In this document: positions 5,070-15,689 of the stretch, one piece after another
Layout: each line of letters begins with the position of its first letter
Position numbering within the stretch: position 1 is the stretch's first letter
Virus record (IMG/VR): IMGVR_UViG_3300030451_003486
Coordinates: 1-34,272 of that record
Source of the DNA: a virus
Reading direction: 5' to 3' (one strand)
DNA length: 34,272 nt
Position numbers and translations under genes: made by a program
The notes under the pieces: model-generated
Seen by the model: the letters and a program-made list of their open reading frames with translations, nothing else
What the model was told of the DNA's origin: nothing
Databases searched by the model: none

Positions 5070-5397
5070 TAGAAAAAAGATACCTGTTTTTACAGGAGTG
5101 TTAAATTATTTTCCTGATGCTATAAGAGAAGTGGCTAAAGTGTCTTATGCTGGTAATGAGCAACATCATCCAGGAGAACCTTTACATTGGGACAGAGCGA
5201 AGTCCACAGACGAGCTCGATGCTTTATCTAGACATCTTATACAAGCTGGTACAATTGATGATGATGGTATGAGGCATTCTGCTAAAGTAGCCTGGAGAGC
5301 TTTAGCTAATCTACAGAAAGAAATAGAGAATGATAATGATAAATGGTATAAAGAACAATACAATAGAAACAGAGATCCAAAAGACCATATAAAATGA
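5062..5397 (+). CDS. dATP/dGTP diphosphohydrolase N-terminal domain-like protein
   Basis: The 111-residue product shows GVLNYFPDAIREVAKVSYAG, then GEPLHWDRAKSTDELDALSR and DDDGMRHSAKVAWRALANLQ. These are hallmarks of the small phage family annotated as dATP/dGTP diphosphohydrolase N-terminal domain (formerly DUF5664). The His and Asp residues are well kept. The family name rests on association with nucleotide-pool enzymes; catalysis by this domain alone is uncertain. No PurZ-like or other 2-aminoadenine gene is present, so I do not infer a modified genome. It overlaps the sigma-like gene by 4 bases (ATGA). Confidence 0.75.
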   Translation: MSDRKKIPVFTGVLNYFPDAIREVAKVSYAGNEQHHPGEPLHWDRAKSTDELDALSRHLIQAGTIDDDGMRHSAKVAWRALANLQKEIENDNDKWYKEQYNRNRDPKDHIK

Positions 5398-5978
5398 TAT
5401 TAAAGCAACTAGCTAAAAGAAATAAAGAATGGTTGAAAGTTGCAAAGTCTATTTGCAGAGATGAAGATCTTGCAAAAGAAATGGTCCAAATAATGTATTT
5501 TAGAATGCTTAAATATATTAGTGATCCGTCAAGAATTATGGTTGACGGTAAGATAAACAAGATATATATTTATGTTACTCTGAGAAATATATTTTACAAA
5601 TTAAAGAACGACAAGAATAAAATTCAATTCTATGAATTTAAAGAGTTTGATACATTTGATGAGAATTTTGATACTTCTAAATATAGTACCGATTTAAGTT
5701 ATTCATTTGAAGATCAAATTGATGTTGAAAAAATGGAAGCTGCAAATGAAAAAATAATGAAGATGATTGAAGATGAAATAGAAACTTGGCACTGGTACGA
5801 TAAGAAACTTTTTAGACTATATTATTATACAGATTATAGTATGAGAGACATAGCAAAGAAAACAAATATATCTTTAACAAGTATATTTAATTCTTGTAAG
5901 AATTATAAACAAATTATAGCTGATAAGTTTGGAGAAGATATTATGGATTTCTTCAATAAAGATTACGATAAAATATAA
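5394..5978 (+). CDS. Sigma-70-like RNA polymerase sigma factor
   Basis: In this 194-residue protein, residues 10-45 (EWLKVAKSICRDEDLAKEMV followed by QIMYFRML) resemble sigma region 2 helices, and residues about 130-180 contain KLFRLYYYTDYSMRDIAKKT and NISLTSIFNSCKNYKQII, a region-4 helix-turn-helix. A polar acidic linker lies between. The layout is that of small ECF-type or phage sigma factors. It could direct host polymerase to late promoters; the two major late units here share a start element (14964 and 26905) unlike the early TAnnTTTG boxes. Regulation of those units is inference. Confidence 0.75.
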   Translation: MILKQLAKRNKEWLKVAKSICRDEDLAKEMVQIMYFRMLKYISDPSRIMVDGKINKIYIYVTLRNIFYKLKNDKNKIQFYEFKEFDTFDENFDTSKYSTDLSYSFEDQIDVEKMEAANEKIMKMIEDEIETWHWYDKKLFRLYYYTDYSMRDIAKKTNISLTSIFNSCKNYKQIIADKFGEDIMDFFNKDYDKI

Positions 5979-5981
5979 AAT

Positions 5982-6404
5982 ATGAAAAAGCCAAAAGATA
6001 AAAGAACAAAAGCGTACAAAGATTGGAAAAAGAAATTTGACGCAAAGAATGAAAACAAGTCTGAAGGACTTGGAGATACTATAGAAAAAATAACTGAAGC
6101 AACAGGAATTAAAAAAGCTGTGAAGTTTTTAGCAGGAGAAGATTGTGGATGTGACGAAAGAAAAGATAAGCTCAATAAGTTATTTTCATATAACAAAATG
6201 GAATGCCTGACAGAAGAAGAGTATTTGTTTTTAGATGATTTATTTAAAAGTAAAAAGAGAACTCTTCCTGCTCCTATTGTTAGTAAATGTATAAATATAT
6301 ATAACAGGGTTTTTAACGCTAAACAAAAAGGAACAAGCTGTAGTTCTTGTTTTGTAAATAATGTATATAAACCTTTGAAGAAAATATATGAGGCTTATTT
6401 ATAA
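5982..6404 (+). CDS. Conserved phage protein with CxC and CxxC cysteines
   Basis: The 140-residue protein has a basic N-terminus, then GLGDTIEKITEATGIKKAVK and a DCGCDERKDKLNKLF motif, and near the C-terminus SCSSCFVNN. The GLGDTIEKITEATGIKK...CGC...KLNKLF block recurs in flavobacterial phages without assigned function. The paired cysteines could bind zinc, but the CxC...CxxC spacing is long. It follows the sigma-like gene by 3 bases and overlaps the next gene by 17, so it belongs to the same transcript. A DNA-binding or transcription accessory role is possible; I would not name it. Confidence 0.75.
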   Translation: MKKPKDKRTKAYKDWKKKFDAKNENKSEGLGDTIEKITEATGIKKAVKFLAGEDCGCDERKDKLNKLFSYNKMECLTEEEYLFLDDLFKSKKRTLPAPIVSKCINIYNRVFNAKQKGTSCSSCFVNNVYKPLKKIYEAYL

Positions 6405-7581: not shown

Positions 7582-7837
7582 ACATCCTGTAACGAGATTA
7601 TATTTTAGATTAACTTGTAACGATATTATAGACGGAGCAAATGACAAAGACTTAAACATAAGTTTACATTTCTTTGAAGAGCTTGAATTATATGAAGAAT
7701 GTTTAGGAATTTATTTAGCTAGACAATATGCAAATTTTTTTATATTTACAACACTATTAAACAATTACTATGAATTTGAACCAGATACTAGAATACGTCC
7801 AAGACCGAACAGGATTGGATTTACAAACAAAAAGTAG
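7505..7837 (+). CDS. Hypothetical protein overlapping both neighbours
   Basis: From ATG 7505 the frame gives 110 residues and overlaps the nuclease gene by 77 bases and the DnaA-like gene by 68. The middle (HPVTRLYFRLTCNDIIDGAN and FFEELELYEECLGIYLARQY) reads like a genuine helical protein; nothing else fills 7582-7769. A TTG at 7571 would give an 88-residue product with only 11 bases of 5' overlap and may be the true start. The C-terminal 22 residues lie under the DnaA-like start. No family recognised. Confidence 0.55.
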   Translation: MTILSNREKRKLRRQLRIILDTLDSKHPVTRLYFRLTCNDIIDGANDKDLNISLHFFEELELYEECLGIYLARQYANFFIFTTLLNNYYEFEPDTRIRPRPNRIGFTNKK

Positions 7838-8291
7838 AGAAAGAAGCTATGTTTATGCCAGGGCTGTTTACTTTTATTTATGTAGAGAATACACGCCTTT
7901 AAGCACAAAAAAGATAGGAGAGTCTTTAGGTAAAGATCACGCTACAGTTCTTCACGCAATAAAAAAAGTTATTCCAATAATACTTAGGCACGAAGAAGCT
8001 TTAGCTGATATCTGTTTGACTTTTAGAGACGAAAATAAATCTTATATAGACGTGAGCAAAAAAAAGATTGATTTGCTGTTAGATAATAAAAAATTATCAA
8101 TACAAAATGAGTTGCTTTCTAATAAGTTAGAAATGTTAGAGAAAAATAAATTTTATAGATTATCTCAAAACATTCCTGACAATCAAGAAGAGATAGCTTA
8201 TAAAATGTTCTTAGATATATTGTGTGATTTGTCAAAGGATAACGACAAGACAAAAGTTTATTCAGGTTATAGTTCTGTAGATGCTTTTTAA
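7770..8291 (+). CDS. DnaA domain IV-like DNA-binding protein
   Basis: The 173-residue product begins MNLNQILEYVQDRTGLDLQT and contains YARAVYFYLCREYTPLSTKK, then IGESLGKDHATVLHAIKKVI. This is DnaA domain IV (helix-turn-helix with GRDHxTVLHA), without the AAA+ domain. After it comes a coiled-coil-like stretch (residues 95-135) and a unique tail. DnaA-C proteins recognise DnaA boxes, so it may act at the phage origin, block host DnaA, or regulate genes. It is the last gene of the early operon before the terminase block. Confidence 0.82.
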   Translation: MNLNQILEYVQDRTGLDLQTKSRERSYVYARAVYFYLCREYTPLSTKKIGESLGKDHATVLHAIKKVIPIILRHEEALADICLTFRDENKSYIDVSKKKIDLLLDNKKLSIQNELLSNKLEMLEKNKFYRLSQNIPDNQEEIAYKMFLDILCDLSKDNDKTKVYSGYSSVDAF

Positions 8292-8552: not shown

Positions 8553-8920
8553 AGTCTACCGATGGTAGAAAGAATAACGGTCAGAAGCGAGGAGACGCCA
8601 TTTTAAGGCGTTCTCTGAGCACTCCAACTAAAATCAATAAGGCTATGAAGGTCAGGTCAAAACTATTAGCTACAAAGGCTATAAAGGATGTTTATGGATC
8701 TGAAGAAGAGTTCTGGGTTATGGTTGCCGAGAATGCCAGGAACTCACAGTTCGATAGAAAGATGATAGCTGAGTACGTTTATGGTAAACCTGGAGAGAAC
8801 TTAGATATTACGAAAGGAGCTGAGAATGTAGATATATCTATTATGAATTTCTTTCAAGGCACTCCTCAAATAGAAGAAGATAATACAATTGATATAGATG
8901 AAGACACCGAAGCTGAATGA
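8519..8920 (+). CDS. Putative small terminase subunit
   Basis: The 133-residue protein has a very basic N-terminus with TDGRKNNGQKRGDAI, a helical middle (TKINKAMKVRSKLLATKAIK, then DVYGSEEEFWVMVAENA and DRKMIAEYVYGKPGE), and a strongly acidic tail. This basic-helical-acidic plan, the GKP motif and its place directly before the large terminase are typical of small subunits that recognise phage DNA and regulate packaging. Sequence similarity alone is weak. It overlaps the large terminase gene by 23 bases. Confidence 0.7.
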   Translation: MPRKKPERKYMKSTDGRKNNGQKRGDAILRRSLSTPTKINKAMKVRSKLLATKAIKDVYGSEEEFWVMVAENARNSQFDRKMIAEYVYGKPGENLDITKGAENVDISIMNFFQGTPQIEEDNTIDIDEDTEAE

Positions 8921-10109
8921 TAAGTATCAAGCCTTTGGGAATGACTCCAGGTATTTTATTATAACAGGCGGTAGAGGTTCTGGTAAATCTTTTGCTGTGA
9001 ATGTTTTCTTATTGCTGTTGACTTATGAAAGAGGCCATAAGATATTGTTTACTAGATATACAATGGTATCTGCAGCTTCATCTATTATTCCTGAATTTAT
9101 TGAAAAGCTAGAAATGATGGGAGTGAGCGAAGACTTTAGAATAACTAAAGACGAGATCACGAACATTAAAACTAAGTCTAGTATATTATTTAAAGGTATA
9201 CGTACAGCTTCAGGTAACCAGACGGCATCACTTAAATCTTTAAACGCAATAACTACTTTTGTATTGGATGAGGCGGAAGAGCTTACAAGCGAAGACGACT
9301 TTGATAAGATTGATCAGTCTGTTAGAGTTAAGAATAAACAGAATAGATGTGTACTTATATTAAACCCAACTACAAAAGAACATTGGATCTTTAATCGCTT
9401 CTTTGAGAACAGGCATATACCAGATGGCTTTAATGGTATCAAAGGAGGCATCACTTATATTCATACAACCTACTTAGACAATAAAGATAATCTATCTATA
9501 TCATTCTTGAATCAGATACAAGACATAAGAAGAAGAAGGCCAGAGAAATATAATCATCAGATTATGGGGGCCTGGCTTGAGAAACAAGAAGGTGTTATAT
9601 TTAGAAACTGGAGGATAGGAGAGTTCAATGAGAACTATGATTTATATTATGGTCAAGACTTTGGATTTAGTATTGATCCAACAGTTCTTGTAAAACTAAG
9701 CATAGATAAAAAAGGCAGGAGAATATTCTGTAAAACAATGTACTGCAAAGCTGGGTTGTCAACAACACAGATTGCAGATTACAATATTAGATATGCTGGT
9801 CCTCATTTAATTATCTGTGATAGTTCTGAACCACGTCTAATAAAAGAAGTTAAACTTAAAGGAGTTAATATAAGACCGACCGTTAAACGCAGTGGGTCTA
9901 TACTTACTGGTATTGCTTTACTTCAGGACTTTGATTTGATTGTGGATCCTGACTCCACTGAACTTATAAAGGAACTTAACAATTATGTTTGGGCAACTAA
10001 GGGTCAAACAAAACCTGTTGACAAATGGAATCACAACATTGACGCGATCCGCTACGCAGCTCAATACGCTCTTGAAGGATTTAACAAAGGCTCTTACTCT
10101 ATTCGTTAA
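8898..10109 (+). CDS. terL: Terminase large subunit
   Basis: The 403-residue protein has a complete ATPase domain: Walker A GGRGSGKS at 24-31, Walker B FVLDEAEEL at 121-129 and a coupling motif ILNPT at 154-158. The RNase H-like nuclease domain keeps three metal Asp residues: D254 (YGQDFGFSIDPT), D308 (IICDSSEP) and D382 (NHNIDAIRYA). It drives DNA into proheads and cuts the concatemer. The codons for KRSGS (330-334) are one copy of the dispersed repeat, using CGC for Arg where this genome normally uses AGA, and its TAA lies inside the next copy at 10106. The portal is 17 kb away. Confidence 0.96.
   Translation: MKTPKLNDKYQAFGNDSRYFIITGGRGSGKSFAVNVFLLLLTYERGHKILFTRYTMVSAASSIIPEFIEKLEMMGVSEDFRITKDEITNIKTKSSILFKGIRTASGNQTASLKSLNAITTFVLDEAEELTSEDDFDKIDQSVRVKNKQNRCVLILNPTTKEHWIFNRFFENRHIPDGFNGIKGGITYIHTTYLDNKDNLSISFLNQIQDIRRRRPEKYNHQIMGAWLEKQEGVIFRNWRIGEFNENYDLYYGQDFGFSIDPTVLVKLSIDKKGRRIFCKTMYCKAGLSTTQIADYNIRYAGPHLIICDSSEPRLIKEVKLKGVNIRPTVKRSGSILTGIALLQDFDLIVDPDSTELIKELNNYVWATKGQTKPVDKWNHNIDAIRYAAQYALEGFNKGSYSIR
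9893..9908 (+). repeat. Dispersed repeat copy inside terL
   Basis: TTAAACGCAGTGGGTC matches the repeat found in three clusters downstream, with one G fewer in the G-run. It is read in frame as VKRSGS within the terminase nuclease domain. As the copy inside an essential gene, it may be the source of the others. Confidence 0.75.
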
Positions 10110-10165
10110 ACGCAGTAGGGTTGCATCATTAAACGCAGTAGGGTCGCTCTTAAACATAGTAGGGT
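10106..10165 (+). repeat. Repeat cluster 1: three copies of TTAAACGCAGTAGGGT
   Basis: Copies begin at 10106, 10129 and 10150 (steps of 23 and 21). The first contains the TAA of terL. The third reads TTAAACATAGTAGGGT and also encodes the last residues (PYYV) and the stop of a minus-strand gene. All are in the same orientation. Between copies only short unrelated bases remain. Confidence 0.85.
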
Positions 10166-10278
10166 TTGCCCGTATCTTCATCGTAGAACTCTGTTGATTC
10201 TTTACACTCACTACATCTATTTAGATCAGGTTCGCCTAACCAAGGTGGAGCTGAACAACATTCTGATTTTAAATACAT
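10150..10278 (-). CDS. Small zinc-ribbon-like protein on the minus strand
   Basis: Reading leftward from ATG (10278) to TAA (10150-10152) gives 42 residues: MYLKSECCSAPPWLGEPDLN, then RCSECKESTEFYDEDTGKPY and a final YV. CC...CSEC is the pattern of tiny phage zinc ribbons of the type CCGAP...RCSxCKE...F, which I recognise from many phages as unnamed proteins. It converges on terL and ends inside a dispersed repeat. Its 5' end shares a control region with the rightward gene at 10350. It probably binds zinc; partner unknown. Confidence 0.7.
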   Translation of the reverse strand: MYLKSECCSAPPWLGEPDLNRCSECKESTEFYDEDTGKPYYV

Positions 10279-10284
10279 AACAAT

Positions 10285-10308
10285 TTGTTAACATTAAGTT
10301 AACACTAA
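10285..10308 (+). promoter_or_regulatory. TTAA-rich regulatory element heading accessory cassette 1
   Basis: TTGTTAACATTAAGTTAA and the following CACTAA form a 24-base element that matches 20 of 24 positions at 12001-12024, in front of the next cassette. It has two GTTAAC palindromes with an 11-base step, about one helical turn, as expected for a dimer-binding operator or a UP-like element. It lies between divergent genes (10278 leftward, 10350 rightward). No clear TAnnTTTG box follows here. Confidence 0.6.
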
Positions 10309-10349
10309 GCTACAAAACTTTTCTTAATATTGCTACAAATATTTATTAT

Positions 10350-10613
10350 ATGACAAAAATTGAACACTTTATTAACGGGACCAAAGATGGTCAAATCTTC
10401 TCAGCTACCTTTGTAAAGAAGGATGGTAGTTTGAGAAAGATTACAGCACGTAGAGGCGTAAGAAAAGGAGTCACTGGAAAGGGACTTTCTTTTGAGCCTC
10501 TGACTAAAGGACTACTTCCAGTGTATGATATGCACAAAGAAGGCTTTAGAATGATTAATCTTAATACTTTACAAGAAGTAAAGTTCGAAGGTATAACTTT
10601 AAAATTTAATTAA
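10350..10613 (+). CDS. SH3-barrel-like small phage protein
   Basis: The 87-residue product reads FSATFVKKDGSLRKITARRG, VRKGVTGKGLSF, then LLPVYDMHKEGFRMINLNTL. This resembles the short phage proteins named SH3 beta-barrel fold-containing, with K-x-DGSxRK-x-x-AR-x-GV followed by VYD and FR-x-IN. Members are unstudied. It is the first gene of the accessory block after terL and precedes a TAATATG junction with the next gene, suggesting co-transcription. Confidence 0.72.
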   Translation: MTKIEHFINGTKDGQIFSATFVKKDGSLRKITARRGVRKGVTGKGLSFEPLTKGLLPVYDMHKEGFRMINLNTLQEVKFEGITLKFN

Positions 10614-10614
10614 T

Positions 10615-11157
10615 ATGGAAATAACAGATTTAAATAATAAAATAAGAATTTACACTAGGTTTAAGAGTTATGGTGGTTATGAAGATCCTGACTTGGGAAA
10701 TGGTCATTGGTGTGGATATATAGAGATACCAAAAGGACATCCAGTAAACAATAGAGCATTTGGAGATGCTTGGGAAGATTATGCCATTATAGATAGTTAT
10801 GGTAGAGAAATCAATTACTCTGTTTTTAATGACGGAGTCCTGACTTTAGGTTTTGATTGTGGTCACTCAAGCGACACAAAAGAAACTAATACAGAAGAAT
10901 ACGCAATGAAATGTTTAGAGTTAATGAAGAAAGATGTAATTCAAGAAGGTATTGATTATGTAACAGTCCTTTATAAAGATGGAAGCACAGCTATCTTGAA
11001 CGATATGGATGAAAAACTTAATGATTGTGTAACTAAGGTTATTGACTCTATTGATACATTACATTTTGTAAAAGAATGTTTTGGGAATAATTTAGATGAT
11101 AATTGCTTAATGCATTTATCAAGAACAGTTTTCGGTAAACTAGCAGATAGGTTATGA
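10615..11157 (+). CDS. Conserved phage protein of the GYIxxPxGHP type
   Basis: This 180-residue protein shares features with a widespread unnamed phage family: HWCGYIEIPKGHPVNN near residue 31, followed by a beta region and LTLGFDCGHSSDTKETN. In family members a VHGG motif lies between these blocks; here that region reads GREINYSVFNDG. The His and Cys residues in GHP and DCGH might bind metal. The C-terminal half is helical with no clear match. Its stop overlaps the next ATG (ATGA at 11154). Confidence 0.68.
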   Translation: MEITDLNNKIRIYTRFKSYGGYEDPDLGNGHWCGYIEIPKGHPVNNRAFGDAWEDYAIIDSYGREINYSVFNDGVLTLGFDCGHSSDTKETNTEEYAMKCLELMKKDVIQEGIDYVTVLYKDGSTAILNDMDEKLNDCVTKVIDSIDTLHFVKECFGNNLDDNCLMHLSRTVFGKLADRL

Positions 11158-11330
11158 GAGAGTTAGGTAAAATATTAAGAAGGTTCTGGGGTGCTAAAAG
11201 CACCCAGTACTGGATTTGCGTTCCAACAGAAATGGATAGCAAAGAGGCTAAGGAGGATTTTATCTTCCAGACAATAGAATTTTTAAACAGTAAAATAATT
11301 ATCAAAGATGATACATTCAGCAGACATTAG
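11154..11330 (+). CDS. Small hypothetical protein (58 residues)
   Basis: The frame starts in an ATGA overlap with the previous gene and ends 23 bases inside the next. The product begins MRELGKILRRFWGAKSTQYW and ends KDDTFSRH. Codons 12-17 lie in a perfect 7-bp hairpin (11189-11195 with 11199-11205, loop AAA) that has no T-run after it, so it may be an mRNA element inside the gene. Function unknown. Confidence 0.55.
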   Translation: MRELGKILRRFWGAKSTQYWICVPTEMDSKEAKEDFIFQTIEFLNSKIIIKDDTFSRH

Positions 11331-11541
11331 AAGATTAAAAGATGAGGCTCAGGTTAGATCTGAGGTCTCAAAAAGAGATGAAATAATCTCAAAAAAAGAT
11401 GAGGAAATCTCAAAAAGAGATGTTCAAATCCAAGAGTTAAAAGAAAGGATTGAAGCTTTAACAATAAAGGTTGAAATGCTTCAAGAGTTTATATCCGATG
11501 TGGATGATAAGTATAATTCAAAAACTAATAACAATGGGTAA
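11308..11541 (+). CDS. Coiled-coil protein with tandem repeat
   Basis: The 77-residue product is almost entirely Lys/Glu/Asp-rich helix: SEVSKRDEIISKKDEEISKR, then VQIQELKERIEALTIKVEML. Residues about 20-40 come from three tandem 21-bp DNA units, giving SKRDEII, SKKDEEI, SKRDVQI, exactly seven residues or one heptad each. Slippage can therefore lengthen or shorten the coil without breaking frame. No family is recognised. It overlaps both neighbours. Confidence 0.65.
   Translation: MIHSADIRRLKDEAQVRSEVSKRDEIISKKDEEISKRDVQIQELKERIEALTIKVEMLQEFISDVDDKYNSKTNNNG
11366..11428 (+). repeat. Three 21-bp tandem repeats inside a coiled-coil gene
   Basis: TCTCAAAAAGAGATGAAATA-type units begin at 11366, 11387 and 11408. 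Units one and three also have a small palindrome, CTC-A5-GAG. The 21-bp period equals one heptad. Confidence 0.8.
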
Positions 11542-11809
11542 AAGTAAATCAACATACGTTCACGACATTCACACGCTTCAAGGATCTGACGGAGAGCTGT
11601 ATCTAGGATATAGTGACAATTGTGATGTTGTTATAGAGATTAAGACTTTATGGGACTGGCTACCAAGTATAATTGAAGTAGCTGTTGAACAAAAGAAACT
11701 TCAAGATCTTTTTGACAAAGAAGAGTTTGGAAGAGCAATTGACAAGCTCGATAACTTTGTAGACTTTTCTGATCCTGAAATTCTTAAACGCAGTGGGGTC
11801 GAAAAATAA
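11534..11809 (+). CDS. Hypothetical protein ending in a repeat-encoded tail
   Basis: From ATG 11534 the product has 91 residues; an in-frame ATG at 11471 would overlap the coiled-coil gene by 71 bases and is less likely. It contains VHDIHTLQGSDGELYLGYSD and IEIKTLWDWLPSIIEVAVEQ, with no recognised family. The last residues LKRSGVEK are encoded by the first copy of repeat cluster 2, in the same reading phase as the KRSGS codons of terL. The repeat thus seems to have been captured at the gene's end. Confidence 0.62.
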   Translation: MGKSKSTYVHDIHTLQGSDGELYLGYSDNCDVVIEIKTLWDWLPSIIEVAVEQKKLQDLFDKEEFGRAIDKLDNFVDFSDPEILKRSGVEK

Positions 11810-11875
11810 TTCTTAAACGCAGTGGGGTGCGCCTTCTTAAACGCAGTGGGTTGTTTCTCTTAAACGCAGTAGGGT
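11781..11875 (+). repeat. Repeat cluster 2: four copies of TTCTTAAACGCAGTGGGGT
   Basis: Copies begin (at TTAA) at 11784, 11813, 11837 and 11860, steps of 29, 24 and 23. Copies one and two share 19 bases exactly; copy three has GGG-TT and copy four GTAGGGT. All are in the plus orientation. The first is coding for the end of the previous gene; the rest lie between that gene and the promoter at 12001. Confidence 0.88.
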
Positions 11876-11889
11876 CCGCCTTTGGGCGG
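11876..11889 (+). terminator. G+C-rich hairpin after repeat cluster 2 (possible terminator)
   Basis: CCGCC and GGCGG flank TTTG, followed by a C-rich then pyrimidine-rich tract rather than a clean T-run. In such an A/T-rich genome a fully G/C 5-bp stem stands out. It could end the transcript of cassette 1 or be a DNA structure tied to the repeats. The rest of 11890-12000 holds no gene I can support. Confidence 0.4.
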
Positions 11890-12000
11890 TCCTGCGCCCC
11901 CTCTGTTCTCTTTCTGGTTTTCTGTTCTGGTGGGTCCTGCTATTCATACCGCCAATATTACGACTCAAATTTAACCTGCATATTTCCTCAATTTTAAATA

Positions 12001-12048
12001 TTGTTAATGTTAAGTTAATATTAAATTAACACGGCTTTGCTATGTTTG
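12001..12048 (+). promoter_or_regulatory. Regulatory element and promoter of accessory cassette 2
   Basis: TTGTTAATGTTAAGTTAA plus TATTAA at 12001-12024 repeats the element at 10285 with the same 11-base step between GTTAA units. TATGTTTG at 12041-12048 matches the TAnnTTTG box, and the ATG at 12053 follows 4 bases later. No TTG lies at the expected distance; the GTTAAT at 12014 may take its place. Confidence 0.62.
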
Positions 12049-12052
12049 GGCT

Positions 12053-12436
12053 ATGGAAAATAAATTTAATATTAATGATTTAGAGCTCTTTATCAAGAGT
12101 TTTAAATATTGTTATTTCCTCGAAGGGGATGACAAGACACACAAAAGGCTAGATGATAGCCTTGAACTAATTCAAAAACTGAGAAAATTAGTAGAGAAAG
12201 AACAAGAGATTAAAACGGTTTACGTTGTTAATCATTATGAGGGCGGGGTCCCTGGAGAGTCTGACTGTTGCGGGGTTTATTCTTCGCTTGAAGATGCAAG
12301 AAAAAATCTTCAAAAGGTTGTTAAAGATTTAGACATAAGAAACGCAGGAATTGAAGACGATGAGGCGGACCTTGTGACGTGGGACGGTGACCACGGCTGG
12401 GGACAAATAACAATAGAGGAAAACAAACTAAAATAA
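12053..12436 (+). CDS. Hypothetical protein with VxxVxHYEGG and WDGDHGWG motifs
   Basis: The 127-residue protein has a helical N-terminal half and a C-terminal half with TVYVVNHYEGGVPGESDCCG, VYSSLEDARKNLQKVVKD, then DEADLVTWDGDHGWGQITIE. This looks like a small alpha/beta domain found in several phage and bacterial hypothetical proteins that read VYxVxHY..GxESxCCGVYSS..EA. From about residue 60 the codons (GCG, GGC, GAC, GGG) are clearly richer in G+C than early and late genes. Directly followed by the next gene. Function unknown. Confidence 0.65.
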   Translation: MENKFNINDLELFIKSFKYCYFLEGDDKTHKRLDDSLELIQKLRKLVEKEQEIKTVYVVNHYEGGVPGESDCCGVYSSLEDARKNLQKVVKDLDIRNAGIEDDEADLVTWDGDHGWGQITIEENKLK

Positions 12437-13189
12437 ATGGAATTACAATTGATTAAAAAGGAGCAAGGGTACAAGGTACCTGCGCGCTTATTATCGAACG
12501 GCATCACAAACGCCAAGACAAAAAAGAATAAATTGAAAACATTTATTTTGTATTTAGCACCGCACAAACAAAACAGCAAACGAAAAAATATTTGCCCTTT
12601 TGCGTCTAGAGGTTGCGCGGCTGCGTGTCTTTATACGGCTGGACGCGGTAAATTCTCAAACGTTCAAAACGCCAGAATGAACAAAACAGAATATTTTCTG
12701 GCTGATAAAAAAGGATTTCTTAAGCAATTATTTAGCGAGATTTACAAAGAATATAAAAAGGCTTTAAAAGGTGATTATAAAATCGCCGTCAGGCTTAACG
12801 GCACAAGTGACATTGATTTCTTGCACCTGCTTAAAAATGCCTACGGCTTGGACCCTGCTTTAGCAAAGGGCCGTTTATTGTTTTATGATTACACTAAGGA
12901 TTTTAAAAGGGCTTTGAAATACAAGGATAATGAATTTTATTCTTTGACTTTTTCACGTAGTGAGGACAACTGGGAAAAGTGCAAAAAGGCATTAATTCAA
13001 GGCGTAAATGTTTCGGCTGTTTTTGGTGGTGAGTTGCCAAGATATTACAAAGGTTTTAAAGTTGTAGACGGTGACGAAAGAGACGACATAATGATAGACC
13101 GAAAGGGCGTTATTTTAGGACTTAGGGCAAAGGGTGAAGGTAAAAAAGATTATTCAGGTTTCGTTATAAACAATTATACATTATGGTAA
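12437..13189 (+). CDS. DUF7227-type phage protein with Cys cluster
   Basis: This 250-residue protein carries GITNAKTKKNKLKTFILYLA, then NICPFASRGCAAACLYTAGR and VQNARMNKTEYF, followed by IAVRLNGTSDIDF, and later FYDYTKDFKRAL and LTFSRSEDNWEKC. This is the phage family I know as DUF7227 (CPxASxGCxxxCLxxAGRG, then RLNGTSDIxWE). Three close cysteines suggest a metal or Fe-S site, and YDYTK, FSRSE and VSAVFGG could be strands of a TIM-like barrel; the enzyme activity is not known. In many relatives the last Asp-Phe position is Trp-Glu. It begins directly after the previous stop. Confidence 0.78.
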   Translation: MELQLIKKEQGYKVPARLLSNGITNAKTKKNKLKTFILYLAPHKQNSKRKNICPFASRGCAAACLYTAGRGKFSNVQNARMNKTEYFLADKKGFLKQLFSEIYKEYKKALKGDYKIAVRLNGTSDIDFLHLLKNAYGLDPALAKGRLLFYDYTKDFKRALKYKDNEFYSLTFSRSEDNWEKCKKALIQGVNVSAVFGGELPRYYKGFKVVDGDERDDIMIDRKGVILGLRAKGEGKKDYSGFVINNYTLW

Positions 13190-13410
13190 CAAATAAAAGT
13201 TATTTAACATATATATTAATGACTCGATATTTTGGCACTAAGCAGGCTAATTATAATCAAGATGAAATTGTAAACCATATTATTGATAAAATAATTCAAG
13301 AGGTTAATGACGAAGACGTCGACGAAAAAGACCAATATTCTCTATTGAAAGAGTTGATTTTTTTTGCTGTGGATCTGGACGCGTTAGAAGACCATTTAAA
13401 GGGTTATTAA
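13183..13410 (+). CDS. Small hypothetical protein ending in a repeat stop codon
   Basis: The 75-residue product (MVTNKSYLTYILMTRYFGTK, then IVNHIIDKIIQEV and LLKELIFFAVDLDALEDHLK) is acidic and helical. It overlaps the DUF7227-type gene by 7 bases. Its TAA at 13408-13410 is the TAA of the first repeat of cluster 3, so the repeat replaces the gene's natural end. No family recognised. Confidence 0.6.
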   Translation: MVTNKSYLTYILMTRYFGTKQANYNQDEIVNHIIDKIIQEVNDEDVDEKDQYSLLKELIFFAVDLDALEDHLKGY

Positions 13411-13441
13411 ACGCAATGGGCTTTCTTAAACGCAATGGGGT
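13407..13441 (+). repeat. Repeat cluster 3: two copies of TTAAACGCAATGGGGT
   Basis: Copies start at 13407 and 13426, a 19-base step. Both have CAATGGG where other clusters have CAGTGGG or CAGTAGG, so each cluster has its own variant. The first forms the stop of the gene before it. The bases between 13442 and 13513 hold no gene I can support. Confidence 0.82.
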
Positions 13442-14978: not shown

Positions 14979-15689
14979 ATGAGTAAAACATATAAGTTAC
15001 AAGTCCCTGTTTCTTTAGATGATATAACGATAAGTCAATACCAAAAATACATAAAGGTATTAGAAGACAATAAAGATTCAGAAGACACTAATTTCTTAAA
15101 CTTAAAGCTCTTGAATATCTTTTGTGATATTACAATGAAAGAGGCTTATGAGTTGCCAATCCAGGAGTTTGAATATATATTAAATCACCTGGCGACTATT
15201 CTATCAGAAAAACCATTTTTACATCACAGGTTTTTTATGGAAGATCCAAAAGGAGATACAATTGAATTTGGCTTTATACCAAATTTAGATAAAATCACTC
15301 TAGGTGAATATGTAGATGCAGAAAACTATTTATCTAACTGGGAAGATATGCATAAAGCTATGTCGGTCCTTTATAGACCGATCATAGCGGGTAATAAGGA
15401 TTTTTATAAAATAGAAAAATATGAAGGAAGTGATAAGTATTCTGAAATTATGAAAGATGCTCCAGCTTCTGTTGCATTAGGCACTATCCTTTTTTTTTTG
15501 AATTTAGGGATAGACTTGTCGAAAATTACAATGGACTCTTTACTCAAACAGCAGGAGACATTGAAAGAGGATCCTACACACAAGGATTCAGTAAAAAGTG
15601 GGGATGGTATCAATCAATATACTCACTTAGTAAAGGAAATGTCTTCAAAATTGACGAAGCTACAAAACTCAATGTACATAAAGCAATGA
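14979..15689 (+). CDS. Tail assembly chaperone (zero-frame product)
   Basis: The 236-residue product starts MSKTYKLQVPVSLDDITISQ and has FGFIPNLDKITLGEYVDAEN and MSVLYRPIIAGNKDFYKIEK, features of an unnamed flavobacterial phage family encoded ahead of the tail genes. After residue 170 it crosses a run of ten T (15490-15499; codons CTT TTT TTT TTG) and continues to TGA 15687-15689. Overlapping this end, the -1 frame is open for 87 codons to the next gene's start. Position before tail genes, the 0/-1 pair and the T TTT TTT slippery heptamer match the lambda G/GT type of tail assembly chaperone. Chaperone identity is inferred mainly from this architecture. Confidence 0.75.
   Translation: MSKTYKLQVPVSLDDITISQYQKYIKVLEDNKDSEDTNFLNLKLLNIFCDITMKEAYELPIQEFEYILNHLATILSEKPFLHHRFFMEDPKGDTIEFGFIPNLDKITLGEYVDAENYLSNWEDMHKAMSVLYRPIIAGNKDFYKIEKYEGSDKYSEIMKDAPASVALGTILFFLNLGIDLSKITMDSLLKQQETLKEDPTHKDSVKSGDGINQYTHLVKEMSSKLTKLQNSMYIKQ

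Follow-up and report, generated by a model that had tools for sequence, protein, structure and literature searches.

Oriented short-repeat arrays at operon 3' ends as candidate transcript-end sites in a lineage of metagenomic phages

The window analyzed here is the whole of IMG/VR virus record IMGVR_UViG_3300030451_003486, 34,272 nucleotides (nt) of viral DNA in which a 16-base direct repeat, TTAAACGCARTRGGGT, recurs around the 3' ends of genes. Ten matches with at most three mismatches were found, every one on the plus strand; 100 dinucleotide shuffles gave a mean of 0.85 and a maximum of 4. This confirms the ten copies counted in an earlier note on this sequence. At one mismatch or fewer, there are eight forward and no reverse matches in the full record. 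One copy (9883 to 9898, plus strand, TTAAACGCAGTGGGTC) lies inside the large terminase gene terL (8898 to 10109, plus strand; PF04466, 4.8e-29; phrog_2, 3.7e-48) rather than at 9893, where the note had put it; it encodes VKRSGS, and its codons are conserved among relatives. The remaining copies form three plus-strand arrays. Array 1 consists of copies at 10106 to 10121, 10129 to 10144, and 10150 to 10165, the first providing the TAA stop codon of terL and the third reading TTAAACATAGTAGGGT. Array 2 has four copies (11784 to 11799, 11813 to 11828, 11837 to 11852, and 11860 to 11875), the first of which lies within the final codons of the gene that starts at 11534 and encodes LKRSGV. Array 3 has two copies, at 13407 to 13422, which provides the TAA stop codon of gene 13183-13410, and at 13426 to 13441. 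These assignments to gene ends had all been made in the earlier note and hold. Its further claim, that each cluster has its own variant, stands as a tendency and not as a strict rule: copy 4 of array 2 has GTAGGG like array 1, and the copy at 10150 has the form given above. The steps between neighboring copies are 23, 21, 29, 24, 23, and 19 nt, and thus odd in five of six cases.

We examined 29 matching virus records in addition to the window. Of these 30, 28 belong to this lineage, and two (G020 and G021), unrelated and with one copy each, were omitted from the array counts yet included in the count of single copies below. Gene calls came from a simple open reading frame (ORF) script, counts of loci from pattern scans are lower bounds, and the entries share descent, with certain loci recurring between sets. 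An exact-pattern scan of IMG/VR returned at least 118 stretches with clusters of up to six copies; matches with at most three mismatches lie on one strand only in 109 of these stretches and on both strands in 9. Copy number differs between relatives. Absence of the repeat from relatives would, by the earlier note, have counted against its reading, but both the scan and the examined records show that they carry it. Among named phages searched with consensus arrays, the best matches reached E values of only 4 to 6, and four deposited phages (L245 to L248) had no exact 14-mer, their best match having one mismatch. The nearest named terL that we found, at 49.8% identity, belongs to Nonlabens phage P12024L.

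Across these records, arrays lie most often after terL and then at accessory operon ends; in some records, they also follow gene 26206 and the lysis genes. Of 66 arrays, 39 start between -4 and +30 nt from the upstream stop codon, compared with 5.6% of random positions, and in 20 of the 66, the repeat itself provides the stop codon. When 58 distinct arrays were scored against family-labelled genes only, 47% lay within 15 nt of the upstream stop versus 3% that close to the next start. Downstream of terL, copies occupy 31 of the 58 gaps that measure 150 nt or more versus 11 of the 189 smaller ones, and no reverse-strand close pair was found in 63 loci. With arrays set close to the upstream stop and at varying distances from the next start, these comparisons link the element to the 3' end of the gene before it and not to the start of the gene after it. 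Such placement fits one suggestion of the earlier note, namely, a protein-binding array or transcript-end element.

The same places are occupied by repeats of different sequence in other phages. The window belongs to what we call class A, with the body TTAAACGCARTRGG. When 80 loci were ranked by terL identity, the TTAAACGCA form was common down to ~64%, and other loci carried other repeats in the same region (TTAAACATAGTAGG, GTTTAATATGATGGGG, GTTTAACATGAGGGG, CAATTCAATACCCC, TTTTTTTTAGTACCCC, and TTTTCATAGGGG), with further versions (GAATTTAATAGGGG, CTTTAACATAGTAGGGG, CCGTCTTTGTTATGGGGG, and CTTTAACGTAGGACC). All versions combine an AT-rich body with a tail formed by a G-run or a C-run. Sequence extends for at least 500 nt beyond terL in 63 loci; 57 of them have an array downstream of terL, in eleven sequence classes (for classes F, H, and I, the bodies were picked by eye and then counted), and six have no array of these eleven classes; the first copy lies within 60 nt of the terL end in 37 of the 57. 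Nine outgroup records of other classes have an element after terL in all nine cases, after gene 26206 in two, and after a lysis gene in two. Judged from these comparisons, the repeat is not a local oddity: its place is shared by lineages, and its body is lineage specific. Local spread after arrival, as the earlier note had it, therefore accounts for part of the picture at most, as elements stand at these operon ends across the terL clade.

The spacing of the copies follows a rule that also crosses classes. In class A, odd start-to-start steps outnumber even ones 107 to 17 for distinct spacers, 50 to 12 after merging of spacers at 60% identity, and 176 to 17 when arrays with distinct flanks are counted. 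At terL loci, other classes gave 91 odd to 11 even steps, and gap scans open to either parity gave 96 to 7 for the GTTTAATATG body and 86 to 9 for the GAATTTAATA body. The binomial P value was <1e-15 for all four sets tested, which share descent, repeat certain loci, and partly overlap. Symmetric pairing about the spacers showed no peak at the spacer center and hence is not seen as the cause. Holding across classes with different bodies, the odd-spacing rule is a sharp constraint on any mechanism.

Copies also occur singly, for the most part inside genes. Single copies outside arrays, compared with permuted motifs everywhere, numbered 62 forward and none reverse in the 30 records at one mismatch or fewer, while 200 permuted motifs gave a mean of 0.87 and a maximum of 9. 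At two mismatches, there were 137 forward and 4 reverse singles (permuted motifs, 15.5, with a maximum of 62). The 62 fall in plus-strand ORFs (57), between genes (4), and in a minus-strand ORF (1); they collapse to 24 distinct surroundings, and 20 of them are one and the same terL site. There, 15 of 24 class A loci, as well as L262 and L267, have exact TTAAACGCAGTGGG, which encodes [VI]KRSGS; their terL identities range from 98% down to 64%. None of the other 54 loci has it, and 35 of those encode IKKKGS at that place. One class A locus, L024, retains VKRSGS in other codons, and L289, labelled A in this codon comparison, is mainly class A2. In terL, the codons match the motif, as apparently does the protein. 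Most class A phages thus keep the nucleotide string and not the protein alone. A second, weaker match inside terL (TTAAACGCAATAAC, two mismatches) lies at window positions 9240 to 9253, and the same terL place matches in several relatives.

Single orientation, anchoring to stop codons, operon ends shared across different bodies, G/C-run tails, mostly odd spacing, and conservation of the terL codons all emerge from comparison of the sequences. Our tentative reading of these features, held with somewhat less than even confidence, is that the arrays are polar, factor-read transcript-end sites, the 3' element of each transcription unit. The reader would be a protein, it would act on DNA rather than RNA, and the outcome would be the end of the transcript. 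A phage factor would recognize, in a single orientation, the body proper to each lineage (here TTAAACGCARTRGG), and its reading of an array would halt or insulate transcription between operons. The halt would have to be conditional, because copies also sit within needed genes.

Several observations weigh against this proposal. The intragenic copies argue against an unconditional terminator, the exact terL copy is missing in 9 of the 24 class A loci, and 16 of the 66 arrays begin >100 nt from the called upstream stop. Of 45 class A arrays, 9 have intrinsic terminator-like sites, no higher a share than the 20 of 95 for other operon ends (14 of 224 for random stretches; on the reverse strand, 1 of 45 arrays and 7 of 95 other ends), and a plain intrinsic terminator, with GC hairpin and T-run, was rejected for class A. 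The fits of candidate proteins to the motif, described below, are weak, and none is decisive. Transcript ending also leaves the odd spacing unexplained. A reader moving in two-base steps is a guess on our part. Shared places, differing bodies, and odd spacing together point to an undescribed signal, perhaps a transcript-ending one. It is conceivable, if rather unlikely, that this amounts to a clade-wide punctuation code in which each lineage has its own body at the same operon ends, and in which odd spacing would be required by such a two-base-step reader, with opposite registers ensuring a hit.

The nearest known system is the stoperators of L5 and related cluster A mycobacteriophages, described as short asymmetric sites, more than 20 per genome, in short intergenic spaces and mostly in one orientation relative to transcription (PMC9283540, PMC6550527). 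At these sites, the repressor halts elongation and reversal of the site abolishes the effect (PMC9283540), and the motif drifts with lineage, motif distance tracking repressor distance (PMC6550527). The likeness lies in asymmetric sites with one orientation (62 to 0 for singles and no reverse close pairs in 63 loci). The sites studied here differ in being grouped at the 3' ends of operons, 2 to 6 copies to an array, and in their G/C-run tails and odd spacing, and PHROGs matches of 40 window proteins included no integrase and no immunity repressor. By analogy, the phage repeats may work like stoperators, and we call them stoperator-like without claiming membership. Intrinsic terminators share the operon-end position, and in certain arrays outside class A, a C-run and a G-run form a hairpin ahead of a T-run (by eye), but class A arrays are mostly without hairpin and T-run. 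If our proposal is correct, the repeat is a sequence-readable mark of transcription-unit ends in phages met almost only as metagenome records. Because the body changes between lineages while the place stays, these phages would also offer a natural experiment in the co-evolution of a nucleic acid site and its reader, comparable to that of repressor and stoperator.

An RNA-level role is unlikely but has some points in its favor. Here, a phage or host protein or RNA would act on the unpaired sense repeat as a 3' untranslated region element and set mRNA stability or processing, in keeping with the sense orientation and 3' position of the copies. The repeat would be unpaired, because folding of class A arrays does not exceed that of shuffles (mean z, -0.12; n = 76). 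Single and first copies likewise showed no excess folding (z, -0.11 and -0.12), and no local pairing covariation was found in class A, so RNA structure in that class was dropped. The stretch after the last class A copy does fold beyond shuffles (mean z, -1.0; n = 76), and these hairpins count in favor of transcript-end sites. Arrays of class B (z, -1.54; 19 arrays), class C (-2.11; 7 arrays), and class G (-1.5; 7 arrays) fold somewhat, and structure may therefore matter in these classes. Against an RNA-level role, no RNA partner was found in Rfam, the only collection searched for one, and sequence alone cannot separate DNA from RNA reading. A search of the window gave no Rfam match above the gathering score, and no publication on this repeat sequence was among those listed in a literature search, both of which agree with the statement in the earlier note that it knew no described family.

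Arrays might instead act as upstream control elements of the next operon, with sites for a sigma-like protein or another activator, since they lie in the large gaps that precede it. We consider this quite unlikely. The anchoring to the upstream stop described above runs against it, as do intragenic copies without promoter context. A sigma-factor-like protein encoded in the window (5394 to 5978, plus strand; phrog_1740, 4.1e-09; UPF0122, 9.1e-06) is a weak candidate reader: given terL distance, the partial r of its helix-turn-helix (HTH) with the motif is 0.29 (P = 0.003; n = 26), slightly better than the 0.17 of a DnaA-like HTH (P = 0.009; n = 34), but the value for the whole protein is 0.14 or -0.01, depending on how gaps are treated. 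All such fits rest on one shared phylogeny. The largest, 0.37 in 13 loci, belongs to protein 14979-15689, and exonuclease 6850 gave -0.37 (n = 23); fits of this kind therefore carry little weight. The protein at 5982 to 6404 gave 0.23; it has a conserved stretch, GLGDTIEKITEATGIKKAVKFLAGEDCGCDERK, seen in eight of nine outgroup records scanned.

We regard a replication or packaging signal as very unlikely. In this scheme, a motor would move in two-base steps and odd spacing would offer it both registers, which suits the odd spacing found in classes with different bodies and the single orientation genome-wide. Against this, the arrays lie at several operon ends rather than at a single origin or packaging site.

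DnaA boxes and plasmid iterons are short asymmetric direct repeats, as are the copies here, and a gene for a DnaA domain IV-like protein lies nearby (7770 to 8291, plus strand; PF08299, 1.3e-18; PDB 3pvp, 7.5e-10), another weak candidate reader. The chance that the arrays are DnaA-box-like iterons, serving as origin or titration sites for this protein, is nonetheless slim. The gene is present in all 27 terL-bearing class A records, and in an alignment of 14 DnaA-like proteins, the residues aligned with the conserved Arg and His of DnaA, which we take to be DNA contacts, are invariant. TTAAACGCA matches the DnaA box in six of nine letters, for which chance could suffice. The class A motif is constant despite variation in the HTH, the whole-protein fit is 0.08 (P = 0.057; n = 35), and strict orientation is odd for an initiator site. 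Placement at several operon ends is a further difference from DnaA boxes and iterons. PF08299 has no match in the element-bearing record G046 (41,340 bases) or in G043. These absences, with the low fits, weaken the case for the DnaA-like protein as sole reader. The protein also has one weak match to an anti-repressor profile in PHROGs (0.0036).

It is hardly credible that the arrays are seams at which recombination adds cassettes, or that they are a neutral local amplification: gene content between arrays and copy number do vary among relatives, but adjacency across arrays is no less conserved (28 of 840) than elsewhere in the region (84 of 4,100; 21 of 28 class A records, with unlabelled genes scored as not conserved), so that the seam for gene gain put forward in the earlier note is not supported, and a shared position, orientation, and spacing in different bodies would be unexpected of neutral copies. 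The cassettes of T4-type phages, promoters and stem-loops that form repeated intergenic regulatory pieces within a phage lineage, are similar in that respect, but class A has no stem-loop signal and the arrays no seam signal. CRISPR arrays have direct repeats with long unique spacers of similar length, whereas the commonest spacers between 14-base cores here are 3 to 7 nt and common to several arrays. A CRISPR array was rejected because most spacers are 3 to 13 nt and many are shared; cas genes were not searched for.

Some further features adjoin the arrays. The next ORF is on the minus strand for 19 of 62 arrays counted. In the window, a minus-strand ORF of 42 amino acids (10278 to 10150; MYLKSECCSAPPWLGEPDLNRCSECKESTEFYDEDTGKPYYV) with a CC/CxxC pattern is convergent with terL and ends within the array copy at 10150. 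The palindrome TTTAGAATNATTCTAAA, not found in the window, lies shortly 3' of certain arrays (L193:12428, L208:865, L210:2251, and L313:9920, among others) and is perhaps the operator of the next operon. The pattern TTTAGA-N5-TCTAAA has five sites in the 63 loci, four of them within 200 nt after an element, compared with none for a control with reversed halves.

A pair-pattern scan of bacterial genomes matched two stretches. In Segatella copri (L127:3693-4053, minus strand), an intergenic tandem of TTAAACGCAATAGGCTTCGACC with a period of 22 has 17 copies at one mismatch or fewer and a terminator-like hairpin at its end; its period is even, and it is probably unrelated. The other, in a metagenome-assembled genome of the Flavobacteriaceae (L128:3543-3575), is a two-copy array with a phage-like 17-base step, ~1.1 kb from a recombinase-like ORF. 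Finally, the 35,302-base record G014 bears terL at both ends (L191 and L192); the two lie 33,925 bases apart and agree in their motif positions, and for this reason the record is probably a complete, permuted genome of ~33.9 kb.

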